Positions 2,813-61,623 of a stretch of 64,000 bases of DNA are shown here, piece by piece. Numbering within the stretch: position 1 is the first letter of the stretch; each line of letters opens with the position of its first letter. A program made the position numbers and the translations under genes. Source of the stretch: Subtercola boreus (GTDB taxonomy: Bacteria > Actinomycetota > Actinomycetes > Actinomycetales > Microbacteriaceae); assembly GCF_003399635.1 (NCBI RefSeq), contig NZ_NBXB01000028.1, positions 62,001-126,000 of the forward strand. The letters are read 5' to 3'. The notes under the pieces are model-generated. The model was not told the origin of the DNA and searched no databases. It saw only the letters and a program-made list of their open reading frames with translations.

Positions 2813-3757
2813 ATGACCACCCTCGCGCAGTACCCGCGTCCGGACCACTTCGTACTCCATTTCAGCGACACGCACTTCGTCGGCGGTGACGACCTGCTGT
2901 ACGGCAAGGTCGACAGCGAAGGCCATCTCACGAGGATCCTCGGGGAGCTGCTCGAGTCGGGTGCCCGCCCCGAGGCCATCATCTTCACCGGCGACCTCGC
3001 CGACAAGGGCGACCCGAAGGCCTACGAGAAGCTCCGGGCGATCGTCGAGCCGGCCGCCGCGAAGCTGGGTGCAGTCGTGATCTGGGTGATGGGCAACCAC
3101 GACAACCGTGCAGCGTTCCGCGCCGGTCTCCTCGACCAGCAGCCATCGATGAAGCCGATCGACCGGGTGCACGACATCAACGGCCTCCGCATCATCACCC
3201 TCGACTCGACCGTTCCCGGCTCGCACTACGGTGAGGTCACCCCCGACCAACTGGACTGGCTCGCCGAAGAGCTCTCGAGCCCCGCGCCGCACGGCACGAT
3301 CCTCGCCATGCACCACCCGCCCGTGCCTAGTGTGCTCGACCTCGCCGTGATGGTGGAGCTCCGCGACCAGGCGTCACTCGCCGAGGTCTTGCAGGGCAGC
3401 GACGTGCGCTCGATCATCGCCGGCCACCTTCACTACTCCAGCACCGCGATGTTCGCGGGCATCCCGGTCAGTGTCGCGTCGGCCACCTGCTACACCCAGG
3501 ACCTGAACGTACCCATCGGCGGCACCCTCGCCCGCGACGGCGCCCAGGCCTTCAACCTGATCCACGTCTACGAGAACACCGTGCTGCACTCGGTCGTGCC
3601 GATCGGGCACTACGCACGGGTGTCGTACACCAGCGCCTCAGAGACGGCGGCCATCCTCGACAAGGCCAGCGTCGCCTTCGCCCCGCCCGCCGCCGCACCG
3701 GTCACGCCCGAGGAGCCCCTCGTCGTGCCGGCACTGGCGGCCGCGCGGCTCAGCTAG
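2813..3757 (+). CDS. Metallophosphoesterase, cyclic-nucleotide phosphodiesterase (CpdA-like)
   Basis: A 314-residue calcineurin-like phosphoesterase with all the metal-binding blocks in order: SDTHF (about residues 18-22), TGDLADKG (about 59-66), GNHDN (about 94-98), and AGHLHYSS (about 203-210). This arrangement is that of class III cyclic nucleotide phosphodiesterases such as CpdA and Rv0805, which hydrolyse 2',3'- or 3',5'-cyclic nucleotides. The exact substrate cannot be read from sequence. An in-frame ATG at 2690 would add 41 residues without family similarity, so the ATG at 2813 is preferred. Its stop overlaps the stop of the convergent Stealth gene within CTAG at 3754-3757. Confidence 0.88.
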
Positions 3758-25455: not shown

Positions 25456-25524
25456 GCCGATCGACTGGGGAGTTCTGGTCGCTTCCGGGCGCGAATACCG
25501 ACTGAAACTCCCCAGCCGATCGGC
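25456..25524. repeat. Conserved-loop palindrome A, convergent junction PanE-like/rbfA
   Basis: Arms of 26 nt (25456-25481 and 25499-25524) pair with four mismatches around a 17-nt loop (25482-25498, CTTCCGGGCGCGAATAC). The arm core is CGATCG-x-CTGGGGAGTT. The right arm ends on the rbfA stop codon. Loop length and loop sequence match elements at 55762 and 60494, although the arms differ. It may act as a bidirectional terminator, but no T-run follows. Confidence 0.8.
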
Positions 25525-42904: not shown

Positions 42905-43253
42905 GCATTCAGCTTACCCCCGGCCACCGGTGGAGGCTCCTCACGCCCCGAACGGTCGGCTGGCGTTCAGCCGGGCGGCCCCGTCCCTGCCGCGAGAACG
43001 GCTGTTGCCGCCGAGATCGCCGGGTGGGGGTGCGGTCTCGGGGGTGGGTGGCGAGCTCGCCGGGAGGGTGAGGATCTCGCCGGGAGGGTGAGGGACCCGA
43101 ATCGCGGCTAGTGCGTGCCGTTGGCGCGATTCGGGTCCCTTCGGTTGCCAGCAGGGACGGGGCGGGGCGGGTGAGGGGCCCGAATCGCGGCTAGTGCGTG
43201 CGGTTGGCGCGAAATGGGTCCCTTCGGTTGGCAGCAGGGGCGGGGCGGGCGGA
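42905..43253. other. Non-coding region upstream of ispG
   Basis: These 349 bp contain no credible gene. They hold a short tandem of TCGCCGGGAGGGTGAGG (43058-43091) and two copies of an approximately 83-bp unit with palindromes D1 and D2. The ispG promoter should lie in its left part; I cannot place it with confidence. Confidence 0.6.
43092..43222. repeat. Duplicated palindrome D1/D2 upstream of ispG
   Basis: D1 (43092-43139) has perfect 15-bp arms GGGACCCGAATCGCG around an 18-nt loop GCTAGTGCGTGCCGTTGG. D2 (43175-43222) has the same left arm and loop with one change each. Its right arm, CGCGAAATGGGTCCC, has three changes and pairs less well. The copies are 83 bp apart in a direct repeat that includes the flanking TTCGGTTG-CAGCAGGG. 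The reverse-complemented loop matches the 17-nt loop at 55780-55796 at about nine positions. Confidence 0.85.
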
Positions 43254-43929: not shown

Positions 43930-43990
43930 AATTCAGGCAGGAGGGGCTGCCGGCGCGGATACCGCCTCGGCGCCGCCATATGCCTGAATT
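43930..43990. other. Long two-tier hairpin in the SHOCT leader
   Basis: Outer arms AATTCAGGCA (43930-43939) and TGCCTGAATT (43981-43990) pair perfectly. Within the 41-nt interior, CGGCGC and GCGCCG pair again. The AT-rich outer arms stand out in GC-rich DNA. It may mark the end of the response-regulator transcript or be an RNA switch before the SHOCT gene. Confidence 0.5.
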
Positions 43991-54375: not shown

Positions 54376-55727
54376 TGGCGCGCCCCACCTCCACGGCACT
54401 GGCGGCTGCGGGAGCCCGCTCCCTCGGCGACCCATACCTGCCGACCAGCGGCAACGGCGGCTACACCGTGCTGCACTACGACATCGACTGCGACTACCGC
54501 GTCTCCTCAAACCGGCTGAGTGCCACGGCCACCATCACCGCCGTGGCGACGCAACGCCTCTCGAGCTTCAGCCTCGACTTCGCCGGGCTCGTCGCGAGCA
54601 AGGTGAGCGTCGACGGGCACCGCTCGGCGCACCTCACGCAGACGGCCCGGAAGCTCGTCGTCACCCCTCTCACACCGCTCAACAAGGGAGTGGAGTTCAC
54701 GGTGGTCGTCAAGTACAGCGGACAGCCGAAGCCGGTGCGGAGCCAGTGGGGCGAGGTCGGCTGGGAGGAACTCACCGACGGCGTGATCGTGGCCGGGCAG
54801 CCGAGCGGGGCGCCGTCGTGGTTCCCCTGCAACGATCATCCGTCGAACAAGGCGACCTACACGATCGCGTTCGCCGCCGAATCGGCCTACCGCGTGCTGT
54901 GCAACGGCGAACTCATGAAGAAGACGCAACGCGCCTCCCGCACGCGCTGGGAGTTCCGTTCGGCAGAACCTCTCGCCACCTACCTGGCGACCGTGCAGAT
55001 CGGGCTCTACGAGACCATGCATGTGTCCCAGGATGGCGTTCCGCAGTTCGTGCTGCTGCCCGACGACCTGCGGCCCAACGCTCTCGCCGACTTCGAGGCG
55101 CAGGGGCGCATGATGGCCCTGTTCGAGCGACTGTTCGGGGAGTATCCGTTCGACGACTACACGGTCGTCGTCACCGATGACGAGCTCGAGATCCCGCTCG
55201 AAGCCCAGGGCCTCGCGATCTTCGGCCGCAACCACATCGACGGGGTCGGCGGCTCGGAACGCCTCATCGCCCACGAGCTCTCGCACCAGTGGTTCGGCAA
55301 CTCGCTGACCGCTTCCCGCTGGAAGGACATCTGGCTGCACGAAGGCTTCGCCTGCTACGCCGAGTGGCTCTGGTCGGAGGAATCCGGATCGCTCTCGGCC
55401 GACGACTGCGCGACAACCGCGTGGACGCGCCTCAACCGCCTGCCGAAAGACCTGATGATCGGGGACCCGGGTGCCGCGCGGATGTTCGACGACCGGCTCT
55501 ACAAGCGCGGCGCGCTCACACTGCATGCGATTCGCCGCACGCTTGGCGACGACATCTTCTTCCGGGTGCTGCGGGAGTGGGTGGCGACAAACCGCCACGG
55601 TTCGGTCTCGACGCCGGAGTTCGTCGCCCTCGTACAGGCGCACTCGCCGGCCCCCGTCGGCGGCCTCTTCGCCGCCTGGCTCGACCAGCACGCCCTCCCG
55701 AAGCTCCCGCGCCGCGCCACCCGCTGA
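54375..55727 (+). CDS. M1 family zinc metallopeptidase
   Basis: A 450-residue aminopeptidase-N-like protein. The zinc site is HELSHQWFGN (H300, E301, H304) with the third ligand E323 in WLHEGFACYAEWLW, the exact H-E-x2-H-x18-E spacing. The exopeptidase GAMEN motif is replaced by EIPLEAQGLAIFG. The N-terminal beta-saddle (GYTVLHYDIDCDYRVSSNRL) is present but the C-terminal helical domain is short. No signal peptide. It overlaps the synthetase stop by one base (TGATG). In poly-lysine producers an M1-like peptidase beside the synthetase degrades the polymer; a protective or recycling role here is inferred. Confidence 0.9.
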   Translation: MARPTSTALAAAGARSLGDPYLPTSGNGGYTVLHYDIDCDYRVSSNRLSATATITAVATQRLSSFSLDFAGLVASKVSVDGHRSAHLTQTARKLVVTPLTPLNKGVEFTVVVKYSGQPKPVRSQWGEVGWEELTDGVIVAGQPSGAPSWFPCNDHPSNKATYTIAFAAESAYRVLCNGELMKKTQRASRTRWEFRSAEPLATYLATVQIGLYETMHVSQDGVPQFVLLPDDLRPNALADFEAQGRMMALFERLFGEYPFDDYTVVVTDDELEIPLEAQGLAIFGRNHIDGVGGSERLIAHELSHQWFGNSLTASRWKDIWLHEGFACYAEWLWSEESGSLSADDCATTAWTRLNRLPKDLMIGDPGAARMFDDRLYKRGALTLHAIRRTLGDDIFFRVLREWVATNRHGSVSTPEFVALVQAHSPAPVGGLFAAWLDQHALPKLPRRATR

Positions 55728-55761
55728 CCCGCCCCCCACTCCCTCCCCGCCAGCGGCGTCG

Positions 55762-55814
55762 ATCCACCGAAATTTGTCGGTAAGTGACGCTCGAAGCGAC
55801 AAATTTCGGTGGAT
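55762..55814. repeat. Conserved-loop palindrome C, convergent junction M1 peptidase/MFS
   Basis: Perfect 18-bp arms ATCCACCGAAATTTGTCG and complement enclose a 17-nt loop (55780-55796). The arm contains AAATTT, unusually AT-rich for this genome. The reverse complement of the loop, CTTCGAGCGTCACTTAC, shares its frame (C-TT-C at the start, TAC at the end) and the flanking GTCG/CGAC with palindromes A and B. Confidence 0.9.
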
Positions 55815-55842
55815 GGATAGGTGGGTGGGGGGCGTGGCCCCG

Positions 55843-57201
55843 TCAGACCTTGGCGGGCCGGCGGGCGTTCTGGATGCCGATGGCCGACACGATGCCGCCC
55901 ACCACGAGCAGCGCCGCCGTCGTGAGCACGCCGCGCGAGAATCCGTCGACCGTGAGCGCCTCCCCCACGATCAGCGCCGCCGCCGCAGTCGCGATCAGCC
56001 CTGCGACGCGCGCGACGGCGTTGTTCACGGCCGAAGCGATGCCGGCACGCTCGGGGTCGATCGCCCCGAGAATGGCGGCGGTGAGCGGTGCGACGGTCAC
56101 GGTCATCCCGAGCGCGAAGACCACCGTGCCCGGGAACACCTGCGTCAGGTAGTCGGCCGACGCCGTGACCTGCGACAGCAGCACCCAGCCGACCGCCGCG
56201 ATCACCGGCCCGACCGCCATGAAGAGCCGCGACCCGTACTTGCCCGCCAGCGTGCCGAACAGCGATGACAGCGCGATGCTGATGATCGTCGACGGCAGCG
56301 AAGCGAGCCCCGCCTGCGTCGCGGTGTACCCCGCGACCTGCTGCAGGAACAGCGTCAGCAGGAACGACCCGAGCGAGATCGCCGCATAGACGAACGTCGT
56401 CGCGAGGTTGCCGACCCAGAAGTTCCGCACCCGGAACAGGCTGAGCGGCAGCATCGGCTGTGGCACCCGCCGCTCGTTCGCGATGAACAGCACGAACGCC
56501 ACGACCCCCACCACCAGCGCACCCCACACCACGGGGTTCGCCCAGCCGAGCCGGCCCTGCTCGATCAGGGCGAACACCGGGAGCCCGATGCCGAGGATCC
56601 CGAGCACGGCCCCGCGGTAGTCGATGACCGGCTTGACCGGTCGAGGCGGCTCGACGTGGATTTTTCGCAGCATCACGAGCGTGATCGCGATCGGGATCAC
56701 GTTGATCGCGAACACCAGCCGCCACGACAGCAGGTCGACGAGCACACCGCCGAGGAGCGGGCCGGCGAGGAAGGCCGTGCTCGTCCACGCCGTCCACTGC
56801 CCGATCGCCTTCGCCCGCTTCGGTCCGTCGAAATTCGCGATGATGATCGCCAGCGAGCTCGGCACCAGCAACGCTCCCGCGATGCCCTGGATGCCGCGGC
56901 TCACGATCAGGAACTCATCCGTCGGCGAGACCGCACACAGAATGGATGCCGCCCCGAACCCGAGCAGCCCCCAAAAGATGACGCGGCGGCGCCCGAATGC
57001 GTCACTCAGCGAACCGGCGAGCAGAATGACGGCTGTGAGCGAGATGAGGTAGGCGTCGACGACCCACTGCTGCCCCGCGAGGCCCCCGCCGAGTTCCCGG
57101 GTGATCGCGGGCAGGGCGACGTTGATGACGGTGCCGTCGAGGAACGAGATGAACGACGAGAGAATCGCCACCACGAGAACGACACGCTGGTAGCGCGTCA
57201 T
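55843..57201 (-). CDS. MFS drug exporter, DHA2 (EmrB/QacA) family
   Basis: A 452-residue transporter with about fourteen helices. The first helix holds FLDGTVINVALPAI, the classic DHA2 motif D1-like sequence. AGSLSDAFGRRRVIFWGLLG is motif A, FLAGPLLGGVLVDLLSWRLV is motif C, and GIASAVNNAVARVAGLI lies late. Members export drugs, dyes or natural products using the proton gradient. It is convergent with the M1 peptidase gene. A role in releasing the polymer of the neighbouring synthetase is only a possibility. Confidence 0.88.
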   Translation of the reverse strand: MTRYQRVVLVVAILSSFISFLDGTVINVALPAITRELGGGLAGQQWVVDAYLISLTAVILLAGSLSDAFGRRRVIFWGLLGFGAASILCAVSPTDEFLIVSRGIQGIAGALLVPSSLAIIIANFDGPKRAKAIGQWTAWTSTAFLAGPLLGGVLVDLLSWRLVFAINVIPIAITLVMLRKIHVEPPRPVKPVIDYRGAVLGILGIGLPVFALIEQGRLGWANPVVWGALVVGVVAFVLFIANERRVPQPMLPLSLFRVRNFWVGNLATTFVYAAISLGSFLLTLFLQQVAGYTATQAGLASLPSTIISIALSSLFGTLAGKYGSRLFMAVGPVIAAVGWVLLSQVTASADYLTQVFPGTVVFALGMTVTVAPLTAAILGAIDPERAGIASAVNNAVARVAGLIATAAAALIVGEALTVDGFSRGVLTTAALLVVGGIVSAIGIQNARRPAKV

Positions 57202-57259
57202 GAGTTGTCGCCGCAGGTCGGTCGGGCGGGCATCCGGATGCTGCTACCAGCCTCGCGCG

Positions 57260-57718
57260 TCATTGGGCCCGCGGCTCATGCAGCACAGGGAAGTTCACTG
57301 ACTGGGCGATGAAACAGTACCCGCTCGCCTCGCCGTGGAGGCTGTTCGCCAGCTCCACCTGGGCGGGGTCGGCGAGGGTGACCTCCGGATGGAGCGTCGC
57401 CGACGTGAAGTGGCCGCCCTGGCCTTCCTGAACCATCGTCCCCGTCGCGGCGTCTTCGTAGCCGGTCACGACCACCCCGTGCGTCACCGCCACGTGCAGA
57501 TACGACAGCATGTGGCACTCCGCGAGCGCCGCGAGCAACAGTTCCTCGGGGTTCCAGCGGTCGCGGTCGCCGTGGAACGTGCGGTCGGCCGAGGACGGCA
57601 ACTCCACCTTTCCGGCGGCGCGGATCACGCCCGCCCGAGAGTAGTCGCGGTAGCTGCTCGTGCCGGTTCCGCGATTGCCCAGCCATTCGACATTCACTGT
57701 GTAGCGATGCTCAGTCAC
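57260..57718 (-). CDS. OsmC family peroxiredoxin-like protein
   Basis: A 152-residue OsmC/Ohr fold protein. The first redox Cys is in LLLAALAECHMLSYLHVAV and the second in ASGYCFIAQSVNFPVLHEP. The family Arg lies in YSRAGVIRAAGKVELPSSAD. Such proteins reduce organic hydroperoxides and help in oxidative stress. GTG start. It is divergent from gabT, and a perfect 14-bp palindrome lies between the two starts. Confidence 0.88.
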   Translation of the reverse strand: MTEHRYTVNVEWLGNRGTGTSSYRDYSRAGVIRAAGKVELPSSADRTFHGDRDRWNPEELLLAALAECHMLSYLHVAVTHGVVVTGYEDAATGTMVQEGQGGHFTSATLHPEVTLADPAQVELANSLHGEASGYCFIAQSVNFPVLHEPRAQ

Positions 57719-57738
57719 AACTCAACCCTATGCCTCCA

Positions 57739-57752
57739 CCGAACGCGTTCGG
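57739..57752. promoter_or_regulatory. Perfect 14-bp palindrome between osmC-like gene and gabT
   Basis: CCGAACGCGTTCGG is fully self-complementary and lies 20 bp from each start codon in the 53-bp divergent spacer. This is a natural operator position for a regulator of both genes. The regulator is unknown. Confidence 0.5.
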
Positions 57753-57771
57753 CCCGGTATTCTTGAGGACT

Positions 57772-59145
57772 ATGACTGACACTCTCGGCACCTCCGCGTT
57801 CACCATCCCTCAGGAGCGGAAGATCGTCACCGCGATCCCCGGCCCCGCGTCGAACGCCCTGCACGAGCGACGCCTCGCCGTGGTTCCGGTGGGAGTGTCA
57901 TCCGTTCTGCCCGTGTACATCGCGAAGGCGAACGGCGCGATCCTGGTGGATGTCGACGGCAACCAGTTCATCGACCTCGGCGCCGGCATCGGCGTGACGA
58001 CAGTCGGCCACACCCAGGGCGGCGTCGTCGCAGCAGCGACCGAGCAGCTGAACGATGTCACCCACACGCTCTTCACCGTCACGCCCTACGAGGAGTACGT
58101 GCGGGTCGCCGAGCTCCTCGCCGAGCACACACCCGGCGACTTCCCGAAGAAGACCATGCTCGCGAACTCGGGCGCCGAGGCCGTCGAGAACGCAGTGAAG
58201 ATCGCCCGCAAGTACACCCGCCGCGTCGGCGTCGCCGTGCTCGAGCACGCGTACCACGGCCGCACGAACCTCACGATGGCCATGAACTTCAAGGCCTCCC
58301 CGTACTCCACCGGGTTCGGGCCGTTCGCCGGCGACGTCTACCGCGCCCCGAACTCCTACCCGTACCACGACGGCCTCACGGGTGCCGAGGCTGCGGCCCG
58401 CACCATCGCCTACCTCGAGAAGACGGTCGGCGCGTACGACCTCGCCTGCCTCGTCGTGGAGCCGATCCAGGGCGAGGGCGGCTTCGTGCTGCCCGCCGAG
58501 GGATTCCTGCCGGCGCTCCAGCAGTGGTGCACCGAGAACGGCATCGTCTTCGTCGCAGATGAGATCCAGAGCGGCATGGCCCGCACCGGCAAGTACTTCG
58601 CAAGCGAGCACTTCGGCCTCACCCCCGACCTCATCACTTCGGCCAAAGGCATCGCGGGCGGCCTCCCGCTCGCGGCCGTCACCGGGCGAGCCGAGATCAT
58701 GGATGCCGCCCTGCCGGGCGGTCTCGGCGGAACCTTCGGCGGCAACCCCGTCGCGGCAGCCGCGGCGGTTGCGGTGTTCGGCGAGATCGAACGCCTCGGC
58801 CTGCTCGCCGAAGCGACCCGCGTGGAGCAGACGCTCTCCAACGGCCTGCTCGACCTGCAGAAGAAGTACGACATCATCGGCGACGTGCGCGGCGTCGGCG
58901 CGATGATCGCGATCGAGCTCGTGCAGCCCGGCACGGGCGCCACCACGAAGGAGCCGAACGGAGCCGCCGTCACCGCCCTTGCGGCGTACGCGGCCTCGCA
59001 GGGAGTGATCATCCTCACCGCAGGAACGTACGGCAACGTGCTGCGCTTCCTGCCCAGCCTGACGATCAGCGATGCCCTACTCGAAGACGCCCTCAGCGTG
59101 CTCGACGACGGCTTCGCCGCGCTGGCCGCGGGGCAGCTCGCGTGA
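57772..59145 (+). CDS. gabT: 4-aminobutyrate aminotransferase
   Basis: A 457-residue class III PLP aminotransferase, converting GABA and 2-oxoglutarate to succinic semialdehyde and glutamate. The cofactor Lys292 is in LITSAKGIAGGLPLAAVTGR. The PLP Asp is in GIVFVADEIQSGMARTGKYF. ANSGAEAVENAVKIARKYT and VVEPIQGEGGF are typical of GabT/PuuE. GAGG precedes the ATG by five bases. It is followed by an asparaginase-like gene and is convergent with a polyamine importer, so it could drain putrescine-derived GABA. Confidence 0.93.
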   Translation: MTDTLGTSAFTIPQERKIVTAIPGPASNALHERRLAVVPVGVSSVLPVYIAKANGAILVDVDGNQFIDLGAGIGVTTVGHTQGGVVAAATEQLNDVTHTLFTVTPYEEYVRVAELLAEHTPGDFPKKTMLANSGAEAVENAVKIARKYTRRVGVAVLEHAYHGRTNLTMAMNFKASPYSTGFGPFAGDVYRAPNSYPYHDGLTGAEAAARTIAYLEKTVGAYDLACLVVEPIQGEGGFVLPAEGFLPALQQWCTENGIVFVADEIQSGMARTGKYFASEHFGLTPDLITSAKGIAGGLPLAAVTGRAEIMDAALPGGLGGTFGGNPVAAAAAVAVFGEIERLGLLAEATRVEQTLSNGLLDLQKKYDIIGDVRGVGAMIAIELVQPGTGATTKEPNGAAVTALAAYAASQGVIILTAGTYGNVLRFLPSLTISDALLEDALSVLDDGFAALAAGQLA

Positions 59146-60467
59146 GCGCTGCCGTGGGCAGCCCCGCCCCGCGCGAACCTGCCCACGGCGCGCCTGCGAC
59201 CGGTGCGCACGCGACCCCCGGCACCCCTGCCGCCGGCACCTTCGCAGCATCCGCGGGGGTCGAGCTCGCGGTCGTGGAGCGGAGCGGCTTCGTCGAATCA
59301 CGCCATGTCGGCTCCGCGGTCGTCCTCTCGCCCGCAGGCGACATCCTCAGCACTCTCGGAGATCCGTCGGCCCCGATCATCCCGCGCTCCTGCCTGAAGC
59401 CGTTCCAGGCGCTGGCGGTGCTCCGCGGGCTGGATGGTTCGGGTGTGTCACTGGATGCCGTGCAGACGGTGCTCGCGACGGCCAGCCACGCAGGCACCCC
59501 TGAGCACGTGGCCGTTGTTCAGAGCATCCTGCAGCTCGCCGGTCTGGCTCCGGATGCCCTGCAGTGCCCGCACGACTGGCCAGGATCCTCGGGGGCACGC
59601 GACGCCCTCGTGCGAGCGGGTCTCGACCGGTCGCCGCTCTACATGAACTGCTCGGGCAAGCACGCAGCCATGCTGCTCGCGTGCGTCGTCAACGACTGGC
59701 CTCTGGACACGTACCTCGAACCGTCGCACCCGCTGCAGCAGCGCATCCTCGCCACCATCGAGGAACTGACCGGCGAGTCCGTCGCGGCCTCCGCCGTCGA
59801 CGGCTGCGGCGCGCCCGTCCACGCTGTGTCGCTCGTGGGGCTGGCCCGAGGTATCGGGCGCATCACCTCCGCACTTACCCTCGCCCCGCTGCTCAGCCCG
59901 GTCGACGCGGCCGATGCTCCGGTCGACGTCTTCGCGCCGGCTGTCTCGGAGCACGCTGCCTCCGGCGGCGACGACGGCGCGAGCGATCACACCGCCGCCC
60001 TCGGTTTCGACCGTCTCGTCTCGGCAGAAGCGGCCACGCTCACAGCCTCCGTGCTCGCGAACGGCTGGGCGATCGATGGCCCCGGCCGCGCGAACACCCT
60101 CTGCATCGACGAGCTCGCCGTCTTCTCGAAGCTCGGCGCCGAGGGCGTGATGGTGATGTCGACCACCGCAGCCTCGGCCGCTCCCAGTGCCGCCGAGGCG
60201 TCAGGCCACTCCGAGCCGCTCGCCACCGGCGACGCAGCCGCACCCGCCGCTGCCACCGGCACCGCGGGCACCACCGTCGCGCTCAAGATGCTCGACGGCA
60301 ACCTCCGCGCCGCCACCCTCGTCGGCCTCACCCTCCTCGTGCGCGCCGGCGCCCTCTCGCAAGCCTCCGTCGACGCTGTCCTCCCTCGCCTCGACCTCAC
60401 CGTCTACGGCGGCACCGCCCCCGTCGGCGCCATCCGTCTGGGCGAAGCCCTCCTCCCCGCCCACTGA
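59142..60467 (+). CDS. Asparaginase II-type (Rhizobium-like) amidohydrolase
   Basis: A 441-residue protein of the thermolabile rhizobial asparaginase family (AnsA/pfam06089 type), not the E. coli type. Family motifs: ELAVVERSGFVESRHVGSAV, RSCLKPFQALAVLRG, ASHAGTPEHVAVVQSIL, YMNCSGKHAAMLLACV and VDGCGAPVHAVSLVGLARGI. Such enzymes hydrolyse L-asparagine to aspartate and ammonia. Two low-complexity insertions (Ala/Ser/Thr-rich, about residues 260-290 and 345-375) are longer than usual. GTG start overlaps the gabT stop (GTGA), so the two are co-translated. Confidence 0.9.
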   Translation: MSAAVGSPAPREPAHGAPATGAHATPGTPAAGTFAASAGVELAVVERSGFVESRHVGSAVVLSPAGDILSTLGDPSAPIIPRSCLKPFQALAVLRGLDGSGVSLDAVQTVLATASHAGTPEHVAVVQSILQLAGLAPDALQCPHDWPGSSGARDALVRAGLDRSPLYMNCSGKHAAMLLACVVNDWPLDTYLEPSHPLQQRILATIEELTGESVAASAVDGCGAPVHAVSLVGLARGIGRITSALTLAPLLSPVDAADAPVDVFAPAVSEHAASGGDDGASDHTAALGFDRLVSAEAATLTASVLANGWAIDGPGRANTLCIDELAVFSKLGAEGVMVMSTTAASAAPSAAEASGHSEPLATGDAAAPAAATGTAGTTVALKMLDGNLRAATLVGLTLLVRAGALSQASVDAVLPRLDLTVYGGTAPVGAIRLGEALLPAH

Positions 60468-60493
60468 CCTCCCCGCCCTCTGACCTCCTCGAG

Positions 60494-60542
60494 ACACCGA
60501 AAACTGACGTTCCGAACGCTGGATACCGACAGTTTTCGGTGT
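60494..60542. repeat. Conserved-loop palindrome B, convergent junction asparaginase/potC
   Basis: Arms ACACCGAAAACTGACG and CGACAGTTTTCGGTGT pair with one mismatch around a 17-nt loop (60510-60526, TTCCGAACGCTGGATAC). The loop closely follows that of palindrome A at 25482-25498, ending in ATAC and followed by CGAC. The arms share only ACCGAAA with palindrome C and nothing with A. Confidence 0.85.
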
Positions 60543-60582
60543 TTCGATTGCGGCGGAGGGCGGCCGAGCGGGCGGAGCGGGG

Positions 60583-61623
60583 TCAGCCGCGGAGGCGGGC
60601 GAGGCGCGCAGCGCGCGCGGCCCGCGTCACCTGCGCGACCACGACGATCACGATCGCCAGGATGAAGACGGCCGACGCCACCACGTTCGCCTCCGCCGGG
60701 ATGCCGCGCGCAGCCGCGATGTAGATGAACTTCGGGAAGGTGTCCACGGCCCCCGAGTTGAAGTTGGTGATGATGAAGTCGTCGAAGCTGAGCGCGAACG
60801 AGAGCAGGGCTGCCGCCGCGATCCCGGGCAGCAGCAGGGGGAACGTGATGCGCCAGAATACCGCCACGGGCGATCCGTAGAGGTCACGCCCGGCCTCCTC
60901 GAGCGCCGGGTCGAGGGACGCCACCCGCGCCTTCACCGTGACCACCACGAAGCTGATGCAGAACATCGTGTGCGCGATGATGATCGTCGCGAGCCCCTTA
61001 TTGACCCCCAGCGACAGGAACTGCGCCGCGAGCCCCGCCCCCAGCACCACTTCGGGCGTCGCCATCGGCAGGAACAACAGAAGCGAGATCGCCGACCGCG
61101 CCCGGAACCGGTAACGCACCAGCGCGATTGCGATCGCGGTCCCGAGGGCGGTAGCCAGCACCGTCGCGACCACTCCGACCAGGATGCTGTTGGCGAACGC
61201 CTCGCAGACACCCTGCGCCGCGCAGACGTTCGTCCACTTGTCGAGGGTGAAACCCTGCCACGCGATGTTCAGCTTGCCCGAATTGTTGAACGAGAACACG
61301 AAGGTGTACGCGATCGGGATCAGCAGGAACAGCAGCGCCAGCGCCGTGTAGACCGGCAGCCCGAGCCCCCGGAACCGGATGCCGCGGCGGCGCCCCGGCG
61401 CAGCCGCACCGCGCCCACCGCCCGCACCCGGACCCGCCACCGGAGCCTCGAGCTCCCGCGCGATGCCGCCGGGCGACGCCGTCGCCAGCCGCGATGCTCC
61501 GTGAGCCGATTCTGCGGACAGCGACCAGGTGACGTCGGCCCCTGTCGCAGACGCACCGCCAGACACCCCCCGCGCCCGCGGCTTCGTCCACGACGGTGCG
61601 CCCGACACCGACTCCGCACTCAT
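60583..61623 (-). CDS. potC: Polyamine ABC transporter permease, PotC type
   Basis: A 346-residue permease with an unusually long N-terminal cytoplasmic part of about 80 residues rich in Ser/Gly/Ala/Arg. About six membrane helices follow (VYTALALLFLLIPIAYTFVF; ANSILVGVVATVLATALGTA). The EAA loop is LEEAGRDLYGSPVAVFWRIT. FSFNNSGKLNIAWQGFTLDK is typical of spermidine/putrescine PotC. The ATG overlaps the potB stop (ATGA). Last gene of the potDABC-like operon. It is convergent with the asparaginase gene. Confidence 0.9.
   Translation of the reverse strand: MSAESVSGAPSWTKPRARGVSGGASATGADVTWSLSAESAHGASRLATASPGGIARELEAPVAGPGAGGGRGAAAPGRRRGIRFRGLGLPVYTALALLFLLIPIAYTFVFSFNNSGKLNIAWQGFTLDKWTNVCAAQGVCEAFANSILVGVVATVLATALGTAIAIALVRYRFRARSAISLLLFLPMATPEVVLGAGLAAQFLSLGVNKGLATIIIAHTMFCISFVVVTVKARVASLDPALEEAGRDLYGSPVAVFWRITFPLLLPGIAAAALLSFALSFDDFIITNFNSGAVDTFPKFIYIAAARGIPAEANVVASAVFILAIVIVVVAQVTRAARAARLARLRG

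Follow-up and report, generated by a model that had tools for sequence, protein, structure and literature searches.

The window, that is, the whole stretch of 64,000 nucleotides of Subtercola boreus DNA analyzed here, carries three 61-bp palindromes, each of which lies in the gap between two convergent genes. Element 1 is flanked by ApbA/PanE-like and RbfA genes, element 2 by M1 peptidase and MFS transporter genes, and element 3 by asparaginase-II and transporter genes, all of them genes of ordinary function. The elements and their loops are positioned as follows:

25460..25520, no strand assigned: element 1, 61-bp palindrome of arm class B, ATCGACTGGGGAGTTCTGGTCG / loop CTTCCGGGCGCGAATAC / CGACTGAAACTCCCCAGCCGAT
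25482..25498, no strand assigned: loop of element 1, 17 nt
55758..55818, no strand assigned: element 2, 61-bp palindrome of arm class A, GTCGATCCACCGAAATTTGTCG / loop GTAAGTGACGCTCGAAG / CGACAAATTTCGGTGGATGGAT
55780..55796, no strand assigned: loop of element 2, 17 nt
60488..60548, no strand assigned: element 3, 61-bp palindrome of arm class A, CTCGAGACACCGAAAACTGACG / loop TTCCGAACGCTGGATAC / CGACAGTTTTCGGTGTTTCGAT
60510..60526, no strand assigned: loop of element 3, 17 nt

Trimmed to its natural ends, each element is made up of two 22-nt arms around a 17-nt loop and terminates in ATCGA/TCGAT-type ends. The original prediction had described three palindromes in convergent gaps, each with a loop of exactly 17 nt between GTCG/GACG and CGAC, and both statements are borne out for all three elements. 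It had also proposed that the arms differ from element to element. This applies to element 1 (GGGGAGTT-GGTCG) relative to the other two, but elements 2 and 3 belong to a single arm class (CCGAAA-CTGTCG); the arms seemed peculiar to each element because of the small sample, as the window contains two members of class A and one of class B. The RNA folds of the three elements are strong on both strands (-29 to -39 kcal/mol; z-scores of -4.6 to -7.4), and a comparison of the window with Rfam gave no matches.

The whole-genome search and copy count that had been suggested were carried out with pattern searches and a covariance model, and yielded about 36 copies in the same genome, all 61 bp long and always with a 17-nt loop. 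More specifically, the covariance model R1, built from 29 own-genome copies, places about 37 distinct sites at E<=2e-4, and a strict scan finds 36. Pattern matches for the two arm classes amount to 89+89 and 12+12, against 34+34 and 0+0 for the reversed patterns, the counts being paired because each palindrome is scored on both strands; the matches thus lie far above this chance control. The two main arm classes read ATCGA-NNNN-CCGAAAACTGTCG (class A) and ATCGACTGGGGAGTTTCGGTCG (class B), and have the outer TCGA and the inner GTCG in common. Within one genome, the arms are the conserved part, each class being shared by many copies, and in the R1 alignment of own-genome copies the variable arm positions stay paired.

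The three elements are members of a superfamily of short palindromic repeats of Subtercola's order. Its unit measures 59-62 bp and consists of two inverted arms of ~22 nt ending in TCGA, separated by a spacer of 15-18 nt. Among 110 TCGA-ended palindromes of 52-71 bp in the scanned sequence, 79 are 61 bp long and 12 are 60 bp long. A second covariance model, R2, based on 34 diverse members, has matches in 66 of 150 Microbacteriaceae genomes and in 50 of 85 genera, as well as in other families of the order; these superfamily counts depend on models and scans in which pairing is rewarded, a condition of which the shared arms, the exact length and the reversed-pattern controls are independent. Covariation was checked against shuffle and slide controls; in R2, 19 of the 22 pairs proved to have changed on both sides, and no shuffle reached the observed score. 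The compensation between arms that had been predicted therefore holds between subfamilies and species. Since the arm sequences differ, part of the within-genus patchiness seen under R1 is an artefact; in genome G003, for example, 10 matches with R1 became 31 with R2.

Both the length and the arms of the unit are specific to the genome. Elements are always 60 bp long in G021, always 59 bp in G252 and 60 bp in G254, and the arms, shared within each genome, are wholly different between genomes and yet self-complementary. In G254, 57 forward and 55 reverse arm matches were found, almost all of them paired at a distance of exactly 39 nt, with none in the control; pairing and covariation there extend to the inner 16 nt, which results in a nearly perfect 60-bp palindrome. 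Such lineage-specific arm "dialects", present as inverted pairs at gene ends, recall DNA-uptake signals of the type known from Neisseria, which accumulate at terminators in inverted pairs. Uptake sequences, however, also occur singly and within genes in great number, whereas the arms here, as counted in G254, are almost exclusively paired, with a single exact spacing and a copy number in the tens, so that we regard this explanation as hardly credible.

The loops behave differently from the arms. Nearest paralogs within the genome are 90% identical in their arms and 45% identical in their loops. The loop retains its exact length and has S at its edges, and ~87% of copies carry a T at position 2 and an A at position 16. 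A few pairs of paralogous loops exceed a position-weight null, the largest agreement being 16 of 17 positions, a value reached by 0.7% of null sets. If anything, the own-genome loops avoid self-pairing, as an equal or greater degree of pairing is seen in 492 of 500 shuffles. One odd pair is left over, L114 and L120 (near positions 3019 and 3055), in which the loops are identical at 16 of 17 positions and the arms belong to unrelated classes. The original prediction had regarded the loop sequence as the conserved, recognized core, which does not agree with paralogous loops that are nearly random next to arms at 90% identity. The loop length is constant at 17 nt, but the sequence is near-random except for a few edge bases.

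To place the elements in their genomic context, gene calls were made with a codon-usage script written for this analysis. Among 36 copies, 22 lie between convergent genes, 11 between tandem genes, 1 between divergent genes and 2 inside predicted genes. Convergent gaps thus hold 22 of the 34 intergenic copies, compared with 19% expected from the proportion of intergenic bases that convergent gaps contribute in 744 kb sampled from the genome (p=5e-9), and on the same expectation the single divergent copy among the 34 represents a deficit (p=2e-4). The anticipated placement between convergent genes is supported as a preference among the copies of this genome. At convergent sites, the median distance from stop codon to element is 37 nt, and some elements fill the entire gap; the elements of G254 are often located under 20 nt from a stop codon. 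On the sense strand, the 3' flanks of the 22 convergent copies have a C content of 0.515 and a G content of 0.249, compared with 0.363 and 0.323 in convergent gaps lacking a hairpin. A C-rich, G-poor composition is known from Rho-loading regions.

Their position behind stop codons, the preference for convergent gaps, the strong folds on both strands and the C-rich, G-poor 3' flanks are all consistent with ordinary bidirectional intrinsic terminators that resemble each other only in being hairpins. However, no run of T follows the hairpins in the sequence of the three window elements, and a terminator scan of 55600-60700 omits them, with a loop limit of 8 that is stricter than the elements allow. 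Moreover, neither a common 22-nt arm sequence nor a length of exactly 60 or 61 bp at tens of loci is a feature of ordinary terminators. Because the arms are shared and the length is exact, this reading is largely refuted as a full account, and we consider it quite unlikely in that form, but it survives as a function of the repeated element. Taken together, position, symmetry and predicted fold make a role as a bidirectional 3'-end hairpin likely but unproven.

Comparison with close relatives reveals turnover of complete elements, with gain, loss and exchange at one and the same set of junctions. A single concatenated query served to locate the orthologs of 21 junctions in five congeners. In the congener G010, whose flanking genes are 79-98% identical to those of our genome and mostly above 90%, 9 junctions (counted by reading) carry an element of the same class, 7 one of a different class, and 5 are without a recognizable element. 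At the junctions of the elements at 55758 and 60488, G010 carries a third type, GTGGGCAGTT...GGGCCC, with a 16-nt spacer, in place of class A. Loops of class-swapped orthologs are identical at a mean of 6.2 of 17 positions, versus 6.6 of 17 in non-orthologs. As these loops are no more alike than at unrelated sites, entire elements must have been replaced, and a change of the arms in place around a retained loop is rejected for the orthologs. Together with the near-random paralogous loops, the unrelated loops at class-swapped orthologs also lead us to reject the loop as a conserved core.

The loops of elements L106 and L116, both of which are absent from G010, match those of elements that the two species have in common at 15 of 17 positions, an indication that the unit is copied as a whole. 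Among the 21 junctions compared, no clean single-base empty site was found; the intergenic regions around lost copies are rearranged, and an exact empty site is for this reason not demonstrable. Likewise, direct repeats of 2-10 nt, which would indicate a target-site duplication, are not enriched at the ends of 79 elements.

Arms that are kept while loops drift, a symmetric architecture and a fixed spacing would also be expected of sites for a DNA-binding protein, such as a nucleoid- or chromosome-organizing factor, with the arms under selection and without any mobility; the sequence variation between species could then reflect a co-evolving specificity. Yet a double-stranded binding site need not keep its variable positions paired, and here the pairing is kept. 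Class swaps and absences at orthologous junctions additionally require insertion or replacement, and the copies are found close to gene ends and very rarely in divergent gaps. We therefore judge this possibility to be unlikely.

The search extended to candidate partners and carriers. RAYT-type Y1 transposases (Y1_Tnp, PF01797) are absent from all 12 Subtercola genomes, with positive controls in E. coli and others, which extends the earlier remark that no RAYT is visible in the window and leads us to reject RAYT as the partner in this genus. The elements had no match on phage, plasmid or viral contigs, and carriage by any of these was likewise rejected. Inverted arms with different centers, multiple copies and turnover would also be expected of MITEs derived from an insertion sequence, with the arms as its terminal inverted repeats. 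This is decidedly improbable in view of the missing target-site duplication, a spacer of merely 15-18 nt and the practical absence of single arms. Furthermore, neither a longer or gene-bearing element with these ends nor long-range inverted arms around genes were seen in 864 kb of G000 or among the G254 arm matches listed, and the reading of the arms as IS ends was discarded.

Several other palindromes of fixed length were noticed along the way. A second family, AATTCAGG-N45-CCTGAATT, is always 61 bp long and was seen in ~20 copies (window 43930-43990; C11/C29 stretches L149-L182); in G008 it occupies a junction at which other species have 61-bp TCGA elements. At 43091-43140 and 43174-43223, 83 bp apart, the window contains near-copies of AGGGACCCGAATCGCG[18]CGCGATTCGGGTCCCT, a 50-bp family that is also represented in C11 and C29 and in some cases has TCGA-type flanks. 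The genome holds a veritable "zoo" of further families (L149-L188; e.g. C11:290771, C29:177109, C11:177086), including the doubly nested GTGAGAC...GTCTCAC (62 bp), TTTGTCGCTTCCGC...GCGGAAGCGACAAA (44 bp), GAGGACGCAAA (50 bp) and ACGGACACG...CGTGTCCGT (61 bp). Draft contigs repeatedly end less than ~100 bases from such a palindrome or at an orthologous junction (G011 C157/C144, C165, C159; G003 C43, C35; G117 C51, C14), which suggests that the hairpins break short-read assembly.

Of the options originally named for the elements (a mobile element, a protein or RNA target, or a bidirectional terminator), the best fit is a mobile element that also has a role as a 3'-end hairpin; the loop sequence as the recognized core is not supported. 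We therefore favor, as moderately probable, an interpretation in which the elements are REPIN-like, non-autonomous mobile palindromes at gene ends that also act as bidirectional 3'-end hairpins or terminators. In such a scheme, the whole unit would fold into a hairpin in single-stranded DNA and be copied through it; the enzyme responsible may recognize the arms and the length and would not be a RAYT. Insertion at gene 3' ends would be tolerated or directed, and the hairpin, once transcribed at a gene end, could serve as a bidirectional terminator or 3'-end stabilizer, being active from both sides because it is symmetric. Evidence against whole-unit copying comes from the paralogs: plain copying without selection on the arms does not predict near-random loops next to arms at 90% identity.

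A wider and more tentative proposal, possible rather than probable, is that the elements represent an undescribed, order-wide class of miniature mobile DNA. Here, a host enzyme, probably single-copy and not of the HUH/Y1 type, would copy hairpins of exactly 59-62 bp into gene ends, the arms and the specificity of the enzyme would co-evolve in each lineage, and the elements would supply bidirectional 3'-end hairpins at the junctions they occupy. Among the open-licence papers searchable, no description of this palindrome family was found. Should the reading of the elements as REPIN-like be right, such populations occur in the absence of their supposedly defining enzyme, and either a second kind of mobilizer for tiny palindromes awaits discovery or host processes alone maintain and spread such repeats. 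Transcript ending in GC-rich actinobacteria is poorly understood, and the superfamily would offer gene-end hairpins that are readily searched for across a whole order of this group. The elements may then also account for part of the assembly breaks in its draft genomes.

In terms of known systems, the elements share with bidirectional intrinsic terminators a symmetric, strong hairpin closely behind stop codons, but differ in lacking a T-tract and in having an arm sequence and an exact length common to many loci. Like MITEs, they are non-autonomous, multi-copy and built from inverted repeats, but target-site duplications and a parent element were not found. GTAG-/CGTC-tagged palindromic repeats are also short palindromes that fall into many families by stem and loop sequence; they measure 20-40 bp, with mostly very short loops and an unpaired end tag, and the word actinobacteria is absent from the text describing them (PMC3733652). 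The elements, in contrast, have 59-62 bp, spacers of 15-18 nt and no tag. A published REP finder, with default limits of <= 11 nt for loops and <= 32 nt for palindromes (PMC12306157), would miss them because these limits are too small.

The closest likeness is to REPINs, which consist of two conserved sequences in inverted orientation with a short spacer of diverse sequence between them, form hairpins of fixed unit length, are extragenic and make up long-persisting, genome-specific families (PMC3116915, PMC8049555). Inverted conserved arms, a short diverse spacer, a hairpin, extragenic location, multiple copies and a fixed unit length are all found in the elements, with copies here only in the tens, not hundreds. 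They differ from REPIN and REP systems in their strong bias to convergent gene ends, in having a paired ATCGA/TCGAT foot (three alignments) in place of an unpaired GTAG/CGTC tag, and in the absence of a cognate RAYT from the 12 Subtercola genomes. Because of the missing RAYT and tag we do not call the elements a REPIN population, but they work like one.
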